Positions 1,113 through 55,534 of a stretch of 64,000 nt of DNA are shown in pieces; positions within the stretch are counted from its first letter, which is position 1, and every line of letters starts with the position of its first letter. This stretch comes from Thermus sp. 2.9. GTDB taxonomy: Bacteria; Deinococcota; Deinococci; Deinococcales; Thermaceae. A program made the position numbers and the translations under genes. The notes beneath the pieces were generated by a model. It was not told where the DNA came from. It did not search any database and saw nothing but the letters and a program-made list of their open reading frames with translations. The stretch is taken from positions 1-64,000 of the forward strand of contig NZ_JTJB01000003.1 of NCBI RefSeq assembly GCF_000794385.1, written 5' to 3'.

Positions 1113-2596
1113 GCTATCTTTTAGCCCTAGACCAAGGCACCACGTCCTGCCGGGCCATTCTCTTCACTTTGGAGGGGAGGCCCGTTGCGGTGGCCCAGCG
1201 GGCCTTTGCCCAGCTCTACCCCAGGCCGGGCTGGGTGGAGCACGACCCCCTGGAGATCTGGGAGACCACCCTGTGGGCGGCCAGGGAGGTGCTGCGGCGG
1301 GCGGGGGTGGAGGCCCGGGAGGTGTTGGCCCTGGGCATCGCCAACCAGCGGGAGACCACCTTGGTGTGGGAAAGGGATACGGGGCGGCCCCTCCATAACG
1401 CCATCGTCTGGCAGGACCGCCGCACGGCTCCTCTTTGCGAGGCCCTGAGGGAGCGGGGACTAGAGGGGCTCTTCCGGTCCCGCACCGGGCTCCTTTTGGA
1501 CCCCTACTTCTCCGCCAGCAAACTCCTATGGCTTTTGGAGAACGTCCCAGGGCTAAGGGGGCGGGCGGAGCGGGGGGAGGTGTGCTTCGGGACCGTGGAC
1601 ACCTGGCTCCTCTGGCACCTCACGGGGGGCAAGGTCCACGCCACCGACCCCACCAACGCCAGCCGCACCCTGCTTTTCAACCTCCAGAGCCTCACCTGGG
1701 ACGAGGAGCTTCTCGCCGCCTTGGAGATCCCAAGAGCCCTTCTCCCCGAGGTGCGCCCCTCGGACGGGGACTTTGGGACCACCCTTCCGGAACTCCTTGG
1801 GGCCCCCTTGCCCATCCGAGGGGTTTTGGGGGACCAACAGGCGGCCCTCTTGGGGCAGGCGGCTTTGGGGGCGGGGGAGGGGAAGTGCACCTATGGCACC
1901 GGGGCCTTCCTCCTCCTGAACACGGGGGAGCGGCCGGTGTTCGCCGAGGGGGGCCTTCTCACCACCCTGGCCTGGCACCTCCGGGGGCGGGCCACCTACG
2001 CCCTGGAGGGGAGCGTCTTCGTGGCGGGGGCGGCGCTGGGATGGCTTCAGGAGGTGGGCCTCCTGGGGGAGAGCGCCGAGGCGGGACGGCTGGCCGAGGA
2101 GGTGGCGGACACGGGGGGCGTCTACTTCGTCCCCGCCTTCACGGGGCTGGGGGCCCCCTACTGGGACCCCTACGCCCGGGGGGCCATCCTGGGGCTCACC
2201 CGGGGCACGGGACGGGCCCACCTGGCGCGGGCGGCCCTGGAGGGGGTGGCCTTCTCCGTGCGGGACGTGGCCCTGGCCATGGCGGGGGCGGCGGGGCTTC
2301 CCCTCAAGGCCCTGAAGGCGGACGGGGGCATGGCGCAGAGCGACGCCTTCCTGGCCATCCAGGCGGACCTCCTGGGGGCGCCGGTGCTCCGGCCCAAGAC
2401 CACGGAGACCACCGCCTTGGGGGCGGCCTTCGCCGCGGGGATGGGGTCGGGGGCGCTTGCCCTTGAGGACCTCCCCGCCCTGTGGCGGGAGGAGGCCCGC
2501 TTCCTCCCCCGGATGCCGGAGGGGGAACGGGCGCGGCGTTACCGCCTTTGGCGGAAGGCGGTGGAGCGGGCCCTGGGCTGGGCGGGGGAGGGGTGA
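1109..2596 (+). CDS. glpK: Glycerol kinase
   Basis: GlpK phosphorylates glycerol with ATP to sn-glycerol-3-phosphate in the cytoplasm. The 495-residue product is full length for the FGGY family. The N-terminal phosphate-binding segment DQGTTSCRA (residues 8-16) and the central GDQQAALLGQ segment typical of glycerol kinases are present. Its start overlaps the galT stop by four bases and its stop overlaps the glpD start by one base (TGATG). The three genes are therefore almost certainly one transcript, and the next gene uses the product of this one. Confidence 0.96.
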   Translation: MSYLLALDQGTTSCRAILFTLEGRPVAVAQRAFAQLYPRPGWVEHDPLEIWETTLWAAREVLRRAGVEAREVLALGIANQRETTLVWERDTGRPLHNAIVWQDRRTAPLCEALRERGLEGLFRSRTGLLLDPYFSASKLLWLLENVPGLRGRAERGEVCFGTVDTWLLWHLTGGKVHATDPTNASRTLLFNLQSLTWDEELLAALEIPRALLPEVRPSDGDFGTTLPELLGAPLPIRGVLGDQQAALLGQAALGAGEGKCTYGTGAFLLLNTGERPVFAEGGLLTTLAWHLRGRATYALEGSVFVAGAALGWLQEVGLLGESAEAGRLAEEVADTGGVYFVPAFTGLGAPYWDPYARGAILGLTRGTGRAHLARAALEGVAFSVRDVALAMAGAAGLPLKALKADGGMAQSDAFLAIQADLLGAPVLRPKTTETTALGAAFAAGMGSGALALEDLPALWREEARFLPRMPEGERARRYRLWRKAVERALGWAGEG

Positions 2597-4134
2597 TGCC
2601 CTGGGAACGGGAGGCGCTTTGGGAAGGGCTTAAGGAACCCCTGGACCTCCTCATCCTGGGGGGCGGGGCCACGGGGGCGGGGGTCCTCTGGGAGGCCACC
2701 TTGAGGGGCCTCAAGGCCGCCTTGGTGGAGGCGAGGGACTTCGGCGCGGGGACGAGCTCCCGCTCCACCAAACTCCTCCACGGGGGCGTGCGCTACCTGG
2801 AGCTGGCCCTTAAGCGCCTGGACCGGCGGCAGCTCAAGCTGGTAATGGACGCCCTCCACGAGCGCCGGGTGGTGATGGACCTGGCTCCCCACCTGGCCCA
2901 CCCCCTCCCCCTCCTCACCCCCCTCTTCCGCCCCCTGGAACTCCCCTACTACGGGACGGGCCTCATGCTCTACGACCTCCTTTCGGGGCGAAGACGCCTC
3001 GGCCCCACCCGCTACCTCCCCCCCCAGGCGGTGGCGGCCCACTTCCCCCAGCTGCCCAAGACCCTGGGGGGCATCCTCTACTGGGACGGGCAGTTTTTGG
3101 ACCACCGCCTCACCCTCGCCCTCCTCCTCTCCGCCCTCCACCGGGGGGCCACTGCCCTGAACCACGCCGAGGCCACCGCCTTCCTCCTCCAAGGGGGAAG
3201 GGTGGCGGGGGCGGTGGTGCGGGACCGCCTCACGGGGAAGGAGGTGGAGGTCTACGCCAGGGCGGTGGTGAACGCCACCGGCCCCCTCACCGACCGCACC
3301 CGCCACCTCCTGGACCCTGACCTCCCCCCCCTCCTCACCCCCTCCTCCGGGGCCCACCTGGTCCTGGACTACCCCTTGCGGATGGGCCTCCTCCTGCCCA
3401 AGACGAGGGACGGCCGGGTGCTTTTCCTCCTGCCCTACCGGGGCAAGGCCCTCCTCGGCACCACCGACCTCCCCGCCGAGGCCACTTCTTGCCCCCTCCC
3501 CCGGGAGGAGGAGGTGGCCTACCTCCTGGAGGAGGTGCGGCCCTACCTGGGGGACCTCTCCCCCCACATCCGGGCGGTCTGGTCCGGGCTCCGGCCCCTG
3601 GTGGGGCGGGGGGAGACCCGGCTTTTGGTGCGGGACCACCTCATCGCGGAGGAGCGGGGGCTCTACACCCTCACCGGGGGCAAGTGGACCACCTTCCGCC
3701 TCATGGCCAAGGACCTCTTGGACCGCCTGGACCGGGACCTGAGCCTGGGGCTTCCCGCCTCCACCTCCCACGCCACGCCCCTATGGGGGGCGGGGCCCAA
3801 GCCCGCCTTGGACCTTCCTTCCGAGGTGGGGGAGTACCTCTACCACACCTACGGGAAGGAGGCGGGGAGGGTGGCGGCCTTGGGGGATAGGCCCCTTGTG
3901 CCCGGGCTTCCCCACCTGGAGGGGGAGGTGGTCTACGCCGTGCGGGAGGAGCTGGCCTGGAAGCCCCTGGACGTTTTGGTGCGGCGGATGGGCCTTGGGC
4001 TTTTGGACCAGGAGAAGGCGAAGGAGGCCCTGCCCCGGGTGGTGGAGCTCATGGCAAGCCTCCTGGGCTGGGACCAGGGGCGGAAGGAGGCGGAGCGGAA
4101 GGAGGCCGAGGCCGCCTTGCCCGGGCTTTGCTAG
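2596..4134 (+). CDS. glpD: Glycerol-3-phosphate dehydrogenase (FAD-dependent, aerobic type)
   Basis: This is a 512-residue GlpD/GlpA-type flavoprotein that oxidises glycerol-3-phosphate to dihydroxyacetone phosphate and passes electrons to quinone at the membrane. The FAD-binding GGGATGAG segment lies near residues 18-25, followed by the family stretch [16 protein letters not shown]. The frame is open upstream to 2482, but that part overlaps glpK and reads as low-complexity out-of-frame sequence. ATG 2596, overlapping the glpK stop by one base, is the natural start. The 3' end converges on ftsH, and the two genes share one palindromic CTAG as stop codon. Confidence 0.95.
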
Positions 4135-40514: not shown

Positions 40515-41659
40515 TCAGCCTAGGTCTAGGACCCACCCCATGCGCTCTTCCTCCAAAAGGTGCCGGTAGATGCCCAAGGTGATGGTTGGGCTGGCGTGGC
40601 CCATGCGGTCCGCTACCACCTCCACGGGAGCGCCGTTGGCCAGGAGGAGGGAGCCGTAGGAGTGGCGCAGGTCGTGTACACGGATGGCGGGGAGCCCAAG
40701 CCGGGCCAGTACCCGCCGCAGGTAGTGGTCCGGAGCGTCTGGGTGGGCAGGGGTGGAGGGGTCCCGCCCAGGGAAAAGCCACATGCCCCGCGCTTCGGCC
40801 TCCGATAGCCCCTCGAGGGTTGCCCGGTACGCCCGCAGGCGCTCCAAGGTGGTGGGGGGAATGGGTACGGTGCGGTAGCTTCCCGGCGTCTTTGGCTCCG
40901 AAAGCTGGCCCTTTCCGTTCACCTTTATCCACGCCCGGCGCACGTGCAAAACGCCCCGCTCCAGGTCCACATCCCCCCATTGCAGGCCCATCGCTTCACC
41001 CCGCCGCAGGCCGCAGGTGAGCATGAGGCGAAGGGCCAGGGCGATGGGGGTTCCCCCCTCGTCCAGGGCCGCCAGCAGAGCGCGGGCCTCCTCCGGCTGG
41101 AGGGTGCGCCCCGGGGGACGCTTGGGAGGCAACTTCAGGCGCACCGGGGCCACGGGATTGCGCACAATCATCTCCAGGCGAAGGGCATCCTCAAATAGGG
41201 AAAAGAGCAGGGTCCGCGCCAAGCGCACGGTCCTCGAGGTGGCTCGGCCTTGGAGCTCCGTGAGGAAGCGGCGCACGTGCAGGGGCTGTACCGCCTGGAG
41301 GCGCATCCGGCCTAGAGGGTCGTGGGCGGAAGGGTTTTTGAGGGATGGAAGCAGGCGGGTGAGCTCGTAGCGGTAGGAGTTTAGGGTGCTGGGCCGCACT
41401 TCTTTGGCCTTCATCTCCAGCCACTGCTTGGCCCAATCGGCCACGGTGAGGCGGGTGGGCTCGGGCAGGAGCCCCCGATGATGCCGGGCTTGGAGCTCGG
41501 CAAGCTTTCTGGCCACTCAGCCCTGGTCCGGCCATAGACCTGGACGCGTTTGGGGTTGCCCCGCTCGTTGTAGCCGATGGTGATGGCACCCACCCACCGA
41601 CCGTCCTTCCGCTGGTAGATGGAGCCCTCGCCAGGAGGGCGCTTGCCTGTACGGGGCAT
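40515..41659 (-). CDS. int: Tyrosine recombinase (phage integrase), single-base frame break
   Basis: The N-terminal arm-binding region (MPRTGKRPPGEGSIYQRKDG) reads from ATG 41659. The core-binding and catalytic domains continue in another frame from about 41514 to 40515. One base is missing near 41514-41516, where GAGGTGGCC is expected and GAGTGGCC is found; adding it gives 382 whole codons. Catalytic residues are the arginine in CGLRRGEAMGL, the HDLRHSYGS box, the histidine in MGHASPTIT and the tyrosine in LGIYRHL. The start overlaps the repressor stop (TGATG). The indel is either a sequence error or it locks the prophage in place. Confidence 0.88.
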
Positions 41660-42330
41660 CAAATCCTCCGCACCAGGTTCACGGCCACGCCCAAGATGCG
41701 GTCGTGCTCTCCCAGGGGCAGGGGCGGGTGGGCGGGGTTATCGGAGTAAAGGTACCAGGAGCCGTTATAGCGTTGAAGCCGCTTGATAACTACCCCATCC
41801 CAATGCACATGCACGGCCACGACGCGCCCAGGTTCTGGCGCTCCCTCAGTCCAGAACACCACCACATCTCCATCGGTGAGGGTGGGCTCCATAGAGTCTC
41901 CCTTGACCCGCACCGCGAAGAGTTCGCGCTCCCCTTTGCCCCTTAGCTCGGGGAGATCCAGGGTGATGTATTCGGCGTTCTCGTTCCACATGGGCGGTCC
42001 CGCTCCTGCCTCAATGATGGGCATCCGGTAGCGCGTGGTGGGGATAAAACTGGAGGAGTCCACCACCGGGGAGGGGAAGCGGATGCCCGTGGCCTGGGAG
42101 AACTCTTCAGGGGTCCATTGAAGGGCGTTTAAGAGGCGCCTAAAGGTTTCAGGCTCTTTGGCCCACAAGTAGCGCAAAGCCCCCTCAGGATTGGGGAGCA
42201 CCTGAGTGGCTAGCCATGAAGCGCTTTTGCCTACCATCCGCGACACCTTTGGTTGCGAGAGCCCAAGCTCTTTTATCCGCTTACGTATAGCAGACGCCGC
42301 TTTTTCATGGGCCAAAATATCTGCACCCAT
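41659..42330 (-). CDS. Phage repressor with S24 peptidase domain (CI/LexA-like)
   Basis: This 223-residue protein has an N-terminal helix-turn-helix (about 16-50, GLSQPKVSRMVGKSASWLA) and a C-terminal S24 self-cleavage domain. Its catalytic serine is in KGDSMEPTLTDGD and the lysine in DGVVIKRLQ. Such repressors keep the prophage silent and are inactivated by RecA-stimulated self-cleavage after DNA damage. It has a GGAGGAGGT ribosome site. It is divergent from the cro-like gene across an 86-base control region and lies just upstream of, and coupled to, the integrase. Confidence 0.88.
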   Translation of the reverse strand: MGADILAHEKAASAIRKRIKELGLSQPKVSRMVGKSASWLATQVLPNPEGALRYLWAKEPETFRRLLNALQWTPEEFSQATGIRFPSPVVDSSSFIPTTRYRMPIIEAGAGPPMWNENAEYITLDLPELRGKGERELFAVRVKGDSMEPTLTDGDVVVFWTEGAPEPGRVVAVHVHWDGVVIKRLQRYNGSWYLYSDNPAHPPLPLGEHDRILGVAVNLVRRI

Positions 42331-45226: not shown

Positions 45227-45396
45227 GGGGCGGCCCCTGGGACGCCGGTTTCGCGGTAGAAGAGGTCGCAGCCATCCTCCGGGACTACCGGGCCGGGCAC
45301 CTGGGCCCGGAGGAGGCCCTCGAGGAGGTCGCGCAGGCCTTGGTGGAGAACAACTTCGGGAGGCTCCTGGAGGAAGACTCCGCGGAGGAGGGGTAA
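45223..45396 (+). CDS. Phage hypothetical protein, 57 residues
   Basis: An open frame from GTG 45223 overlaps the previous stop (GTGA) and ends at TAA 45396, two bases before the next start. The product is acidic and helical (MRGGPWDAGFAVEEVAAILR start, EEDSAEEG end). Its perfect fit between two genes and normal codon use are the only evidence. Confidence 0.5.
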   Translation: MRGGPWDAGFAVEEVAAILRDYRAGHLGPEEALEEVAQALVENNFGRLLEEDSAEEG

Positions 45397-45398
45397 GC

Positions 45399-46238
45399 AT
45401 GAACAGGACGGAACTGGCGGTTAGGTGGAGCTTGGAGGACCTCGAGCGGGCGGCCCGCTACATGGTCAAAAGCGGGCTCTTCGGCTTGCGGTCCCCGGAG
45501 GAGGCGGTAGCCCTGATGCTCTTGGCCCAGGCTGAAGGGCTCCACCCCGCCCAAGCGGTGCGGGAGTACCACGTGATTGACGGGAGGCCCGCCCTGCGGG
45601 CTGACGCCATGCTGGCCCGCTTTTTGGCCGCGGGCGGGCGGGTGGAGTGGCACGAGCTCTCTGACCAGAAGGCGGAGGCTACCTTCTCCCACCCCCAAGG
45701 CGGCACGGTGCGCCTCTCCTGGACGATTGAGGACGCCCGGCGGGCCGGGCTTTTGGAGCGCAAGGGGAGCAACTGGCTCCGCTACCCCAGGGCCATGCTC
45801 CGGGCCCGGGTCATCTCGGAAGGCGTTCGCACCGTCTACCCCGGGGTAGCGGTGGGGGTCTACACCCCGGAAGAGGTGGTGGAGATGGCCCAGGAGGTGC
45901 CCCCGCCCAGAGAACCCCTCGAGGCCAAGCCGGAGCCCACAAAGGCGCTGGAGAGCCCGTCCGAGGACAAGCCCAAGCGGGAGCGCATCAGGGGCCTCCT
46001 GAAGGCCCTCGGGCTAAGCAAGGAGGAAGCCCGGCAGCTCGCCTCCTTGGTGGTGGAGCGGGAGGTGGCTTCGTTCGGGGACCTCGAGCCCCTGGAGGTG
46101 GACCTCCTCGTGGCCGAGCTGGAGCGCCTGGTGGCCCAGTTTGAGGAGGACGACGTGCCCGTGCTCGACCGGGCCGAGGTGGTGAGGGCGTACCTCCAGG
46201 AGGGGGAGCTTCCCCACAGGGAGGAGGTGGGGGTATGA
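45399..46238 (+). CDS. RecT-like single-strand annealing protein
   Basis: This 279-residue protein has the pattern seen in phage RecT-like pairing proteins: SPEEAVALMLLAQAEGLHP, then YHVIDGRPALRADAMLA (about 54-70), then SWTIEDARRAGL and WLRYPRAMLRARVISEGVR. These proteins anneal complementary single strands during phage replication and recombination. The C-terminal third is charged and Pro/Glu-rich. ATG 45399 follows a GGAGGAGGGGTAAGC ribosome region. It sits before the replication-type gene, the usual place. Confidence 0.7.
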   Translation: MNRTELAVRWSLEDLERAARYMVKSGLFGLRSPEEAVALMLLAQAEGLHPAQAVREYHVIDGRPALRADAMLARFLAAGGRVEWHELSDQKAEATFSHPQGGTVRLSWTIEDARRAGLLERKGSNWLRYPRAMLRARVISEGVRTVYPGVAVGVYTPEEVVEMAQEVPPPREPLEAKPEPTKALESPSEDKPKRERIRGLLKALGLSKEEARQLASLVVEREVASFGDLEPLEVDLLVAELERLVAQFEEDDVPVLDRAEVVRAYLQEGELPHREEVGV

Positions 46239-47299
46239 GGTACGGCGTCCTCTACGCCGCCCTCCGCCTCCTCCTGCCCCCGGAGGGGGGCGTGGTGAAC
46301 CTGAAGGCCCTGGCGGAGGCCCTCGGGGTCCACCCCCGCACGCTGCGGCGGGGGCTTCGGGCCCTCGAGGCCCAGGGCCTCCTCCAGCGCGAGGTGGTCT
46401 ACAGCCGCCACGGGGACCCGGACGGCCTGCGCCTGGTCCCGGTGCCCACCCCCGTGGCGGTTTGCCAGGGGGGTGAGGGCGATGCGCACCCCACCCCGGG
46501 TACAAGGTGCCAGGGGGGTGAGGACACTTTGTATCCCACCCCCGGGCAATCTGTCAGGGAGGTGGGGCACAAACCGCCCTCACCCCCCACCCCTCCCTCT
46601 CCCCCTTCCGCCCTGCCCCTTCCCCCCCAAACCCCCCTAACCCCACCCACCTTCCCTCACTCCCACCCCAACCCCACCACCCCCTACAGTCCCCCTCCTC
46701 CCCACGGGGCGGATCTCGGCGAGCGGGCCCATACCCGGGAAGCCGTTGTTGGGGGAGAAGCGTTTGAGGAAGAGCAAACCCCTCCCGTTAGGGGTGAGCG
46801 GGGTTTTGGGGCTCTCGAGGCTTTCCCCGCGGCTCGTGAAGCCAATCACATGGACCCCGAGGAGGCCCGGGCGTGGGCCGCGGCGGCGCGCCCCGAGCGC
46901 ATCCCGCCCCCGGCCCACACCGAGGCCGGGGCCGCGGCGGTGCGGGCCCTGAGGGACGCGGGCCTCTGGGAGCGCTTTGCCGCCCTCCGCCGCCACGCCC
47001 GCGACTGGCGGGCCTGGCAGGACTGGCTCCACGGGCCCATCGCCCGGGAGTTCGGGCGGCTGGGCGCCCGGGAGTTTGTGGCCGCGGTGCGGGAGGCCCT
47101 CGAGGGCCTAGCCTCCCGCCCCGACCTGGCCCGCCCCCTCATCTGGCTGGAGCGCCAGCTCCAGCGGCGGCCCACGCCGGTGCGGGTAGCCCAGGAAGCG
47201 GTGGAGGACGACCCCATGAGGGCGCTGGTGGACGCCATCATCGCCGGGGATGAGGCGGCGCTGGCGGAGGCGATAGCCCGGATGCCCTTGGACGCGTGA
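46235..47299 (+). CDS. Putative phage replication protein (HTH, Pro-rich linker, helical C-terminus)
   Basis: This is a 354-residue protein. Residues about 20-60 form a winged helix-turn-helix ([24 protein letters not shown]). From about 78 to 165 there is a linker with repeated PTPG-type units and then a run almost wholly of Pro, Ser and Thr. A helical domain with many Arg and Ala follows. This three-part plan and its place after the RecT-like gene recall lambda O-type initiators, in which the origin lies inside the gene. The DNA repeats and pyrimidine tract over the linker fit that idea. Function is inferred, not shown. Confidence 0.55.
   Translation: MRYGVLYAALRLLLPPEGGVVNLKALAEALGVHPRTLRRGLRALEAQGLLQREVVYSRHGDPDGLRLVPVPTPVAVCQGGEGDAHPTPGTRCQGGEDTLYPTPGQSVREVGHKPPSPPTPPSPPSALPLPPQTPLTPPTFPHSHPNPTTPYSPPPPHGADLGERAHTREAVVGGEAFEEEQTPPVRGERGFGALEAFPAAREANHMDPEEARAWAAAARPERIPPPAHTEAGAAAVRALRDAGLWERFAALRRHARDWRAWQDWLHGPIAREFGRLGAREFVAAVREALEGLASRPDLARPLIWLERQLQRRPTPVRVAQEAVEDDPMRALVDAIIAGDEAALAEAIARMPLDA
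46463..46570 (+). repeat. Three imperfect 44-45 bp tandem units inside the replication-type gene
   Basis: Units begin at 46463 and 46508 (both TGCCAGGGGGGTGAGG) and at 46552 (TGTCAGGGAGGTGGGG). The first two also share a CACCCCACCCC-type end. The spacing and position resemble origin iterons. Confidence 0.6.
46571..46704 (+). other. Pyrimidine-rich tract (G-rich on the minus strand)
   Basis: Only four G occur in these 134 bases on the plus strand, and none from 46616 to 46688. Most of the rest is C. The minus strand has many runs of three to seven G and could form G-quadruplexes. It encodes the Pro-rich linker and lies next to the tandem units. Confidence 0.75.
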
Positions 47300-54974: not shown

Positions 54975-55534
54975 GTTGCACGAGATGCTTCCCCGCAAGG
55001 GGATTGCGACCTTTGAAGCCTCGGATTTTGCGCTTGTCTTGACTCGTCAAGTTGCACGAGATGCTTCCCCGCAAGGGGATTGCGACCACTTGATGGCCCC
55101 GACAAAGGTTAGGGCCACGCCCGGATGGTTGCACGAGATGCTTCCCCGCAAGGGGATTGCGACCTAGCGCCTCCACCGCCTTCCAGAACTCATCCCACTC
55201 TTGTTGCACGAGATGCTTCCCCGCAAGGGGATTGCGACCGCGCCCTCCGGCAGTCTGATGGCGGCCTCTATCGTGTTGCACGAGATGCTTCCCCGCAAGG
55301 GGATTGCGACGACAGAAAGAACTTATGGCCTCTAAACATTCGTCCTCCCTACAGTTGCACGAGATGCTTCCCCGCAAGGGGATTGCGACGCCTTGGCCCA
55401 GCTCCGGGGGGGACGGTGAGAATCGCGTTGCACGAGATGCTTCCCCGCAAGGGGATTGCGACTCCAGGTACAGCTCACGCTCCCGCTCCCAGCGTTTTGT
55501 TGCACGAGATGCTTCCCCGCAAGGGGATTGAGCT
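54975..55534 (+). CRISPR. CRISPR array, 8 repeats of 36 bp and 7 spacers
   Basis: Repeats start at 54975, 55051, 55128, 55203, 55275, 55354, 55427 and 55499. The first 20 bases are GTTGCACGAGATGCTTCCCC and the last 8 ATTGCGAC, with a CCCC-GCAA-GGGG hairpin in between. Seven copies are identical; the eighth changes after ATTG and is the terminal one. The ATTGCGAC end, like the usual 8-base crRNA tag, and the decayed last copy both put transcription left to right. Spacers are 40, 41, 39, 36, 43, 37 and 36 bases. Repeat and spacer lengths resemble Thermus type III arrays. No cas gene is in the window. Confidence 0.97.

Follow-up and report, generated by a model that had tools for sequence, protein, structure and literature searches.

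A candidate replication origin inside the initiator gene of a phiMa-like Thermus prophage

We analyzed 64,000 nucleotides of Thermus sp. 2.9 (positions 1 to 64,000 of contig NZ_JTJB01000003.1, assembly GCF_000794385.1), a stretch referred to here as the window. A replication gene of a prophage in the window carries three tandem inverted repeats followed by a C-rich tract that is almost free of G nucleotides. The results described below suggested, with a probability that we place at about 0.8, that a phiMa-like Thermus prophage has its replication origin in this region, embedded, in the style of phage lambda, in the prophage's own initiator gene. An earlier note, made from the letters of the window alone, had proposed an origin inside this gene, and the comparison with related genes supported the proposal.

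Dyad iterons and a G-poor tract in the window gene

The gene and the elements of the putative origin are as follows.

46235 to 47299, plus strand: initiator gene, 354 amino acids, reading frame intact (by translation)
46469 to 46498, no strand assigned: dyad iteron 1, one mismatch to GGGGGTGRGG-N10-CCYCACCCCC
46514 to 46543, no strand assigned: dyad iteron 2, one mismatch to the same consensus
46558 to 46587, no strand assigned: dyad iteron 3, one mismatch; reading frame differs from that of iterons 1 and 2
46570 to 46703, plus strand: G-poor, C-rich tract of 134 nt (4 G, 92 C, 20 A, 18 T)

The encoded protein has a winged helix (about residues 1 to 69), an unstructured, proline-rich linker, and a helical C-terminal domain (about residues 200 to 340), whose conservation was judged from an alignment of relatives. 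The three 30-bp inverted repeats occupy linker codons 79 to 118, which follow the winged helix and begin about 230 bp into the gene. The three tandem units of 44 to 45 bp described previously are real, with spacings of 45 and 44 bp, but they are better viewed as three dyads with six half-sites than as three direct cores. Sites with one mismatch or fewer were restricted to these three in the whole 2.40-Mb genome. When 27 genomes of the genus were scanned, any such site was found in five, the prophage's own genome included, and the three-site cluster was found in that genome only. With the limit raised to three mismatches, three sites anywhere were also obtained in 7 of 100 dinucleotide-shuffled versions of the window, and at its default score Tandem Repeats Finder missed the window array.

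Because the dyad pattern itself was derived from the sites, we ran repeat tests that were independent of any pattern. Specifically, segment 46457-46591 was compared with 1,000 synonymous-codon permutations of the gene and with 2,983 random pieces of the window. The observed score was reached by 73 of the permutations for direct repeats, by 26 for inverted repeats, and by 16 for the three-dyad sum. A single random piece reached the observed dyad sum, and none reached the best inverted repeat.

The almost G-free tract was exactly as long as had been claimed, and the next lowest G count in any 134-bp stretch of the window was 16. The longest G-free run of the window (73 nt) is at 46616-46688. Given the amino acids and the codon use of the prophage, 12.9 G nucleotides were expected in 42 codons and 3 were seen; the outcome was 0 of 20,000 draws, a figure that is somewhat flattering because the segment was picked for its G poverty. 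The difference between 3 and 12.9 indicated that G avoidance sits in codon choice and goes beyond the need for particular amino acids. As the earlier note had suggested, the minus strand could form G-quadruplexes: its G4Hunter score over the tract was the highest in the window (2.62; next, 2.18), and its chain of G tracts extends for 127 nt. Single-strand folding of the G-rich strand, in a run with no quadruplex term known, was uninformative, and an Rfam scan gave no match. The mean stacking value of the tract was -1.58, compared to -1.61 for the window.

The same arrangement in Thermus phages and prophages

Protein searches with the initiator identified relatives in phages phiMa, Cumys, and Riverbug and in two prophages, G029 and G049; the Cumys protein as query added phages Lalka8, Lalka27a, and Lalka27b. 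Because G029 and Riverbug share one version and IMG/VR stretch L016 carries the phiMa version, the independent relatives were counted as five: phiMa, Cumys, Riverbug/G029, Lalka8, and G049. Searches of genome contigs with the initiator protein and with the alignment found no relative. Family and phylum searches yielded G029 and G049 as true relatives; the other candidates (G006, G017, G057, G065, G066, G100, and G109) had repressor-like or weak matches, and the six that were inspected were all dropped.

The earlier note had asked for a comparison with related phages. All five independent relatives have both repeats and tract: a tandem dyad array and then a G-poor tract lie in the same linker, directly after the winged helix, which agrees with the lambda-like placement of iterons that had been proposed. 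Phages phiMa, Cumys, Riverbug, Lalka8, and Lalka27a have this arrangement at the same linker position as the window gene, and the C-terminal domains of the phiMa, Cumys, and Riverbug proteins are homologous to that of the window protein. Unlike the window, the phage relatives have shorter units, an AT-rich stretch, and iteron sequences of their own: GGTsAAC-NNN-GTTsACC in phiMa, GGTGnAC-NNN-GTGCACC in Cumys, GGTGAAC-NNN-rTTCACC in G029/Riverbug, and GGTGCA-nnnn-TGCACC in Lalka8. The G049 array encodes the peptide repeat VNPVDQ, which resembles VVNDVDQ of phiMa.

The sums of direct and inverted repeats exceeded those of all 200 synonymous permutations in each of the five relatives, with G029 representing the Riverbug version. 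A scan that covered the first 50.0 kb of phiMa (total, 51.8 kb) and 34.1 kb of Riverbug located the full iteron unit in the array and nowhere else; in Cumys (50.0 of 50.2 kb), the only exception was one looser match outside the array. The relatives' arrays pass through more than one reading frame and are therefore maintained as DNA.

After the array, all five relatives have the most AT-rich 40 bp of the whole gene at the same place as its most G-poor 60 bp. The window shares the G poverty and the C skew with these genes but not the AT peak, and this missing peak is what chiefly sets it apart from both lambda and its relatives. The conserved property of the tract appears to be strand asymmetry rather than low melting. 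One could also argue that the window holds a decayed former origin in a defective prophage, with fewer and poorer dyads and with the AT-rich element of the relatives lost. The weak statistics of the three dyads and the absent AT peak fit this idea, but the reading frame is intact and G avoidance in the window is the strongest in the set, which speaks against decay because decay would not create G avoidance. We consider this explanation quite improbable.

Profile searches placed most of the relatives among replication proteins. At a threshold of 0.01, HTH_36 was matched in all five aligned initiators, the window protein included, and O-like phage replication-initiation families were matched by four of the five (best, 4.3e-18), the window protein being the exception. 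The Lalka8 protein also matched O-like initiator families. DnaD_N was matched in three of the five aligned members, at best at 1.6e-4, and phrog_186 in four of the five; in Lalka8, the phrog_186 match falls on the winged helix. The window protein also had profile matches at the level of winged-helix repressors (GntR, DeoR, and MarR), a PDB sequence search found generic winged helices only, and an AlphaFold model from two sequences had winged-helix topology at low confidence, too poor for comparing folds. A repressor-like winged helix and dyads, which suit repressors, raise the idea that the protein uses the repeats as operators to repress its own operon, and that the C-rich tract merely encodes a proline-rich, disordered linker. 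However, the sites lie well inside the gene and not at a promoter, the relatives match replication-initiation families, and G avoidance exceeds what the amino acids require. Thus, self-repression seems an unlikely function of these sites.

Cumys and phiMa are reported to share 96% average nucleotide identity overall (PMC11437467), yet their initiators are 50.6% identical and their iterons differ. Initiator and iterons look as if they travel together. Among the Lalka replication proteins that the same 2024 paper lists, RecT is the only one given a phiMa homologue (PMC11437467); our comparison suggests that phiMa_06 should be added as a candidate initiator.

Several features of individual relatives were also observed. 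In Riverbug (PQ109080; L014:5018-5457), a diverged copy of the phage's own rusA region (89% over 441 bp) stands in place of the N-terminal part of the initiator gene, whereas the gene of prophage G029 is intact; either recombination or a misassembly would explain the Riverbug version. In Lalka8 (L032:2501-3844) and Lalka27a (L033:2501-3931), the start that GenBank gives for the O-like gene is internal, and the winged helix is recovered if translation begins at an in-frame ATG about 400 to 500 bp farther upstream. Within the iteron array of Lalka27a, 87 bp are duplicated in tandem and in frame. In G049 (L009:2570-3328, minus strand), a second winged-helix gene of related sequence is located directly upstream of the initiator.

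A C8-spacer-C8 core in and beyond replication genes

A core of two C8 runs around an A/T spacer of 5 to 6 nt was present in four of the five relatives, and phiMa was without it. The tract contains C8-TATAAT-C8 in Riverbug/G029 and Lalka8, C8-TTTAT-C8 in Cumys, and C8-TATAT-C8 in G049. The complement of the core is capable of forming a three-tetrad G-quadruplex. We scanned for C6 or more, a short A/T-edged spacer, and C4 or more (in Lalka8, 1-50,000 and 61.1-66.6 kb of 72.3 kb were covered), and the core occurred once in each of the Cumys, Riverbug, and Lalka8 stretches, always at the tract, with weaker pairs of C runs elsewhere. The window has a putative counterpart.

46622 to 46644, plus strand: C7-AAA-C6-TAA-C4, the nearest counterpart to C8-TATAAT-C8, to which it probably corresponds

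The core also bears on the idea that the repeats serve only the protein, as a repeated linker peptide, and that the DNA has no role. CQGGE and PTPG do occur twice each in the window linker, and the direct repeats of the window were within reach of synonymous permutations. On the other hand, the third window unit is translated in another frame, as VREVGH, and the frame-switching arrays of the relatives surpassed every permutation. In addition, C8-TATAAT-C8 is translated as PPPIIPP in Riverbug/G029 but, in a different frame, as PPYNPPP in Lalka8. A purely peptide-level explanation is very improbable.

A scan of IMG/VR for C8-TWTANT-C7 found 71 stretches in 35 clusters, and the reversed pattern gave none. 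Fourteen open reading frames (ORFs) that overlap the motif were scanned. Replication or primosomal families were matched at 0.01 in eight (L041, L069, L075, L076, L034, L039, L059, and L087; the L041 replication-family match was only at 0.005) and in none of the remaining six (L097, L098, L046, L085, and the doubtful ORFs L095 and L040). When 12 of the motif ORFs were tested for repeats, the direct sum was reached by at most 1 of 200 permutations in nine (L041, L075, L076, L087, L098, L034, L039, L059, and L069); L097, L046, and L085 did not pass. In L034, L039, and L059, the motif is on the opposite strand and is read GGDYRGG, and it still follows the repeats.

The motif was intergenic in other clusters, in 11 of which a nearby protein was scanned. 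A small terminase gene is located near the motif in L045, L037, L073, L049, and L047, a large terminase gene in L061, and a gene for a DNA polymerase exonuclease subunit in L051; the nearby proteins in L042, L091, L083, and L035 were uninformative. In the six stretches with terminase genes the motif has the form C8-TATART-C7, and the L061 terminase is similar to T7-like cyanophage terminases. Near terminase genes, the motif may function in packaging or as a promoter. Because of these intergenic occurrences, the C8-spacer-C8 motif, which is real and directional, is not confined to initiator genes.

Broader scans were less useful. Poly-C at contig ends overwhelmed an open C8-N5/6-C8 scan, in which few centres were usable among the matches listed: N6 TGTAGT appeared twice among 7 counted, and the N5 centres were mostly A/T (e.g., TTTTT and ATTAT). 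A C7-N4-8-C7 scan of 111 genomes was dominated by poly-C. Five stretches (L240, L241, L245, L250, and L258) have C8-(TAAAT, TTTTT, TTTCT, or ATTAT)-C8 in a partly common context; in L240, L241, and L258, the motif lies within about 130 bp of the stretch end, possibly as a genome-end or packaging signature. In L087, ORF 2266-2715 (minus strand), a winged-helix initiator with iterons, ends at a TAA within C11-TATAAT-C9 and another frame continues; slippage on the C run or a homopolymer sequencing error may account for the break.

Seven O-like genes from beyond Thermus were inspected (Pseudomonas, Vibrio [three genes], Psychrobacter, Yersinia, and an enrichment-culture phage). The direct-repeat sum of the linker exceeded that of all 200 permutations in six of them, the exception being Vibrio L117, and iterons located in the gene after the winged helix therefore look common in the O-like class. 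The C8-C8 core was found neither in these seven genes nor in four further named phage stretches. Repeats of about 12 nt of the type TAGAACCAnnnA (protein EPxIEPxIEP) follow the iterons in many genes of the set L115, L116, L118, L120, and L268 and Thermus L010, L009, and L013. These repeats, which are not in the window, occur in phages of unrelated hosts and could be a second origin element.

The C8-spacer-C8 motif was not found in print in the open-access literature searched, and it may be an undescribed part of replication origins. A wider proposal is that C8-(5-6 nt, A/T-rich)-C8 is an undescribed, strand-asymmetric opening or loading element of many unrelated phages with in-gene iterons, and that the 134-nt tract of the window is an extended form that has taken the place of the AT-rich element for unwinding in a GC-rich host that lives at high temperature. 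This proposal is tentative, and we would judge the odds to be somewhat against it.

The proposed origin and its setting

Several results weigh against an origin in the window gene. Taken alone, the window repeats exceed the synonymous null only modestly, and when the segment was widened to take in the C-rich tract, the direct score was reached by 120 of 200 synonymous permutations and the inverted score by 28. The A+T content of the tract is 28%, with no AT peak after the iterons. GC skew, which the earlier note had put forward as a check, was monotone and gave no origin signal. Finally, the window protein matched PHROG O-like families at 0.012 (phrog_428) and 0.037 (phrog_270) and none at 0.01. 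A relation to lambda O was not detectable by sequence in Pfam or PHROGs, and we do not assign the window protein to the lambda O family.

The origins of lambda and the lambdoid Stx phages, as described in PMC7466680 and PMC5043065, have inverted-repeat iterons midway through the initiator gene, where they separate the part for the DNA-binding domain from that for the C-terminal domain. The inverted iterons of the window likewise lie within the initiator gene, past the part for the DNA-binding domain, and are predicted to be bound by the initiator. In contrast to lambda, the window has three 30-bp dyads 44 to 45 bp apart, and a nearly G-free, C-rich tract in place of the easily melted A/T-rich stretch that lies beside the iterons in lambda and in all five relatives. 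This tract is a new feature relative to the lambda scheme. Iteron plasmids of the RK2, P1, and F types also have initiator-binding repeats beside an opening zone, whereas those of the window are dyads inside a gene. Mitochondrial conserved sequence block II, a G-run element described as tied to replication priming, is an analogy only; the comparison does not extend to transcript termination or an RNA-DNA quadruplex.

Two neighboring genes are relevant to the setting of the initiator gene.

45393 to 46238, plus strand: gene for a RecT-like single-strand annealing protein, directly upstream, with a 4-bp overlap at the start of the initiator gene
41659 to 42330, minus strand: gene for an S24/CI-type repressor, adjoining the start of the rightward operon

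The early genes of the prophage are in the order CI, cro, methylase, RecT, and initiator. The rightward operon, with a cro-like gene (42411) and the initiator gene, appears to start beside the CI-type repressor gene, as in lambdoid phages; in lambda and the lambdoid Stx phages, the initiator gene lies in the early operon, after CI and cro (PMC7466680, PMC5043065). No match to a helicase loader, the counterpart of lambda P, was found among the downstream proteins scanned (47296, 47887, 48575, and 49401). Farther downstream, at 55128-55310 and just 3' of the large helicase-like gene of the prophage, is a short array that resembles clustered regularly interspaced short palindromic repeats (period 72, 2.5 copies), with units starting GTTGCACGAGATGCTTCCCCGCAAGGGGATTGCGAC.

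In the origin that we propose, the winged-helix end of the initiator would bind as a dimer to the three dyads within the gene that encodes it. The neighboring G-poor tract would then be opened by the bound complex, together with supercoiling and transcription of the operon. The C-rich strand should be unable to fold on itself and would stay free for helicase loading via the C-terminal domain, and G-quadruplexes may keep the G-rich strand open.

The region thus provides a concrete origin candidate for phiMa-like Thermus phages. The comparison of close phages suggests that initiator and iterons change together, and the directional C-tract motif recurs in replication genes of unrelated phages. 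These findings bear on how duplex DNA may be opened where A/T-rich DNA is not used.
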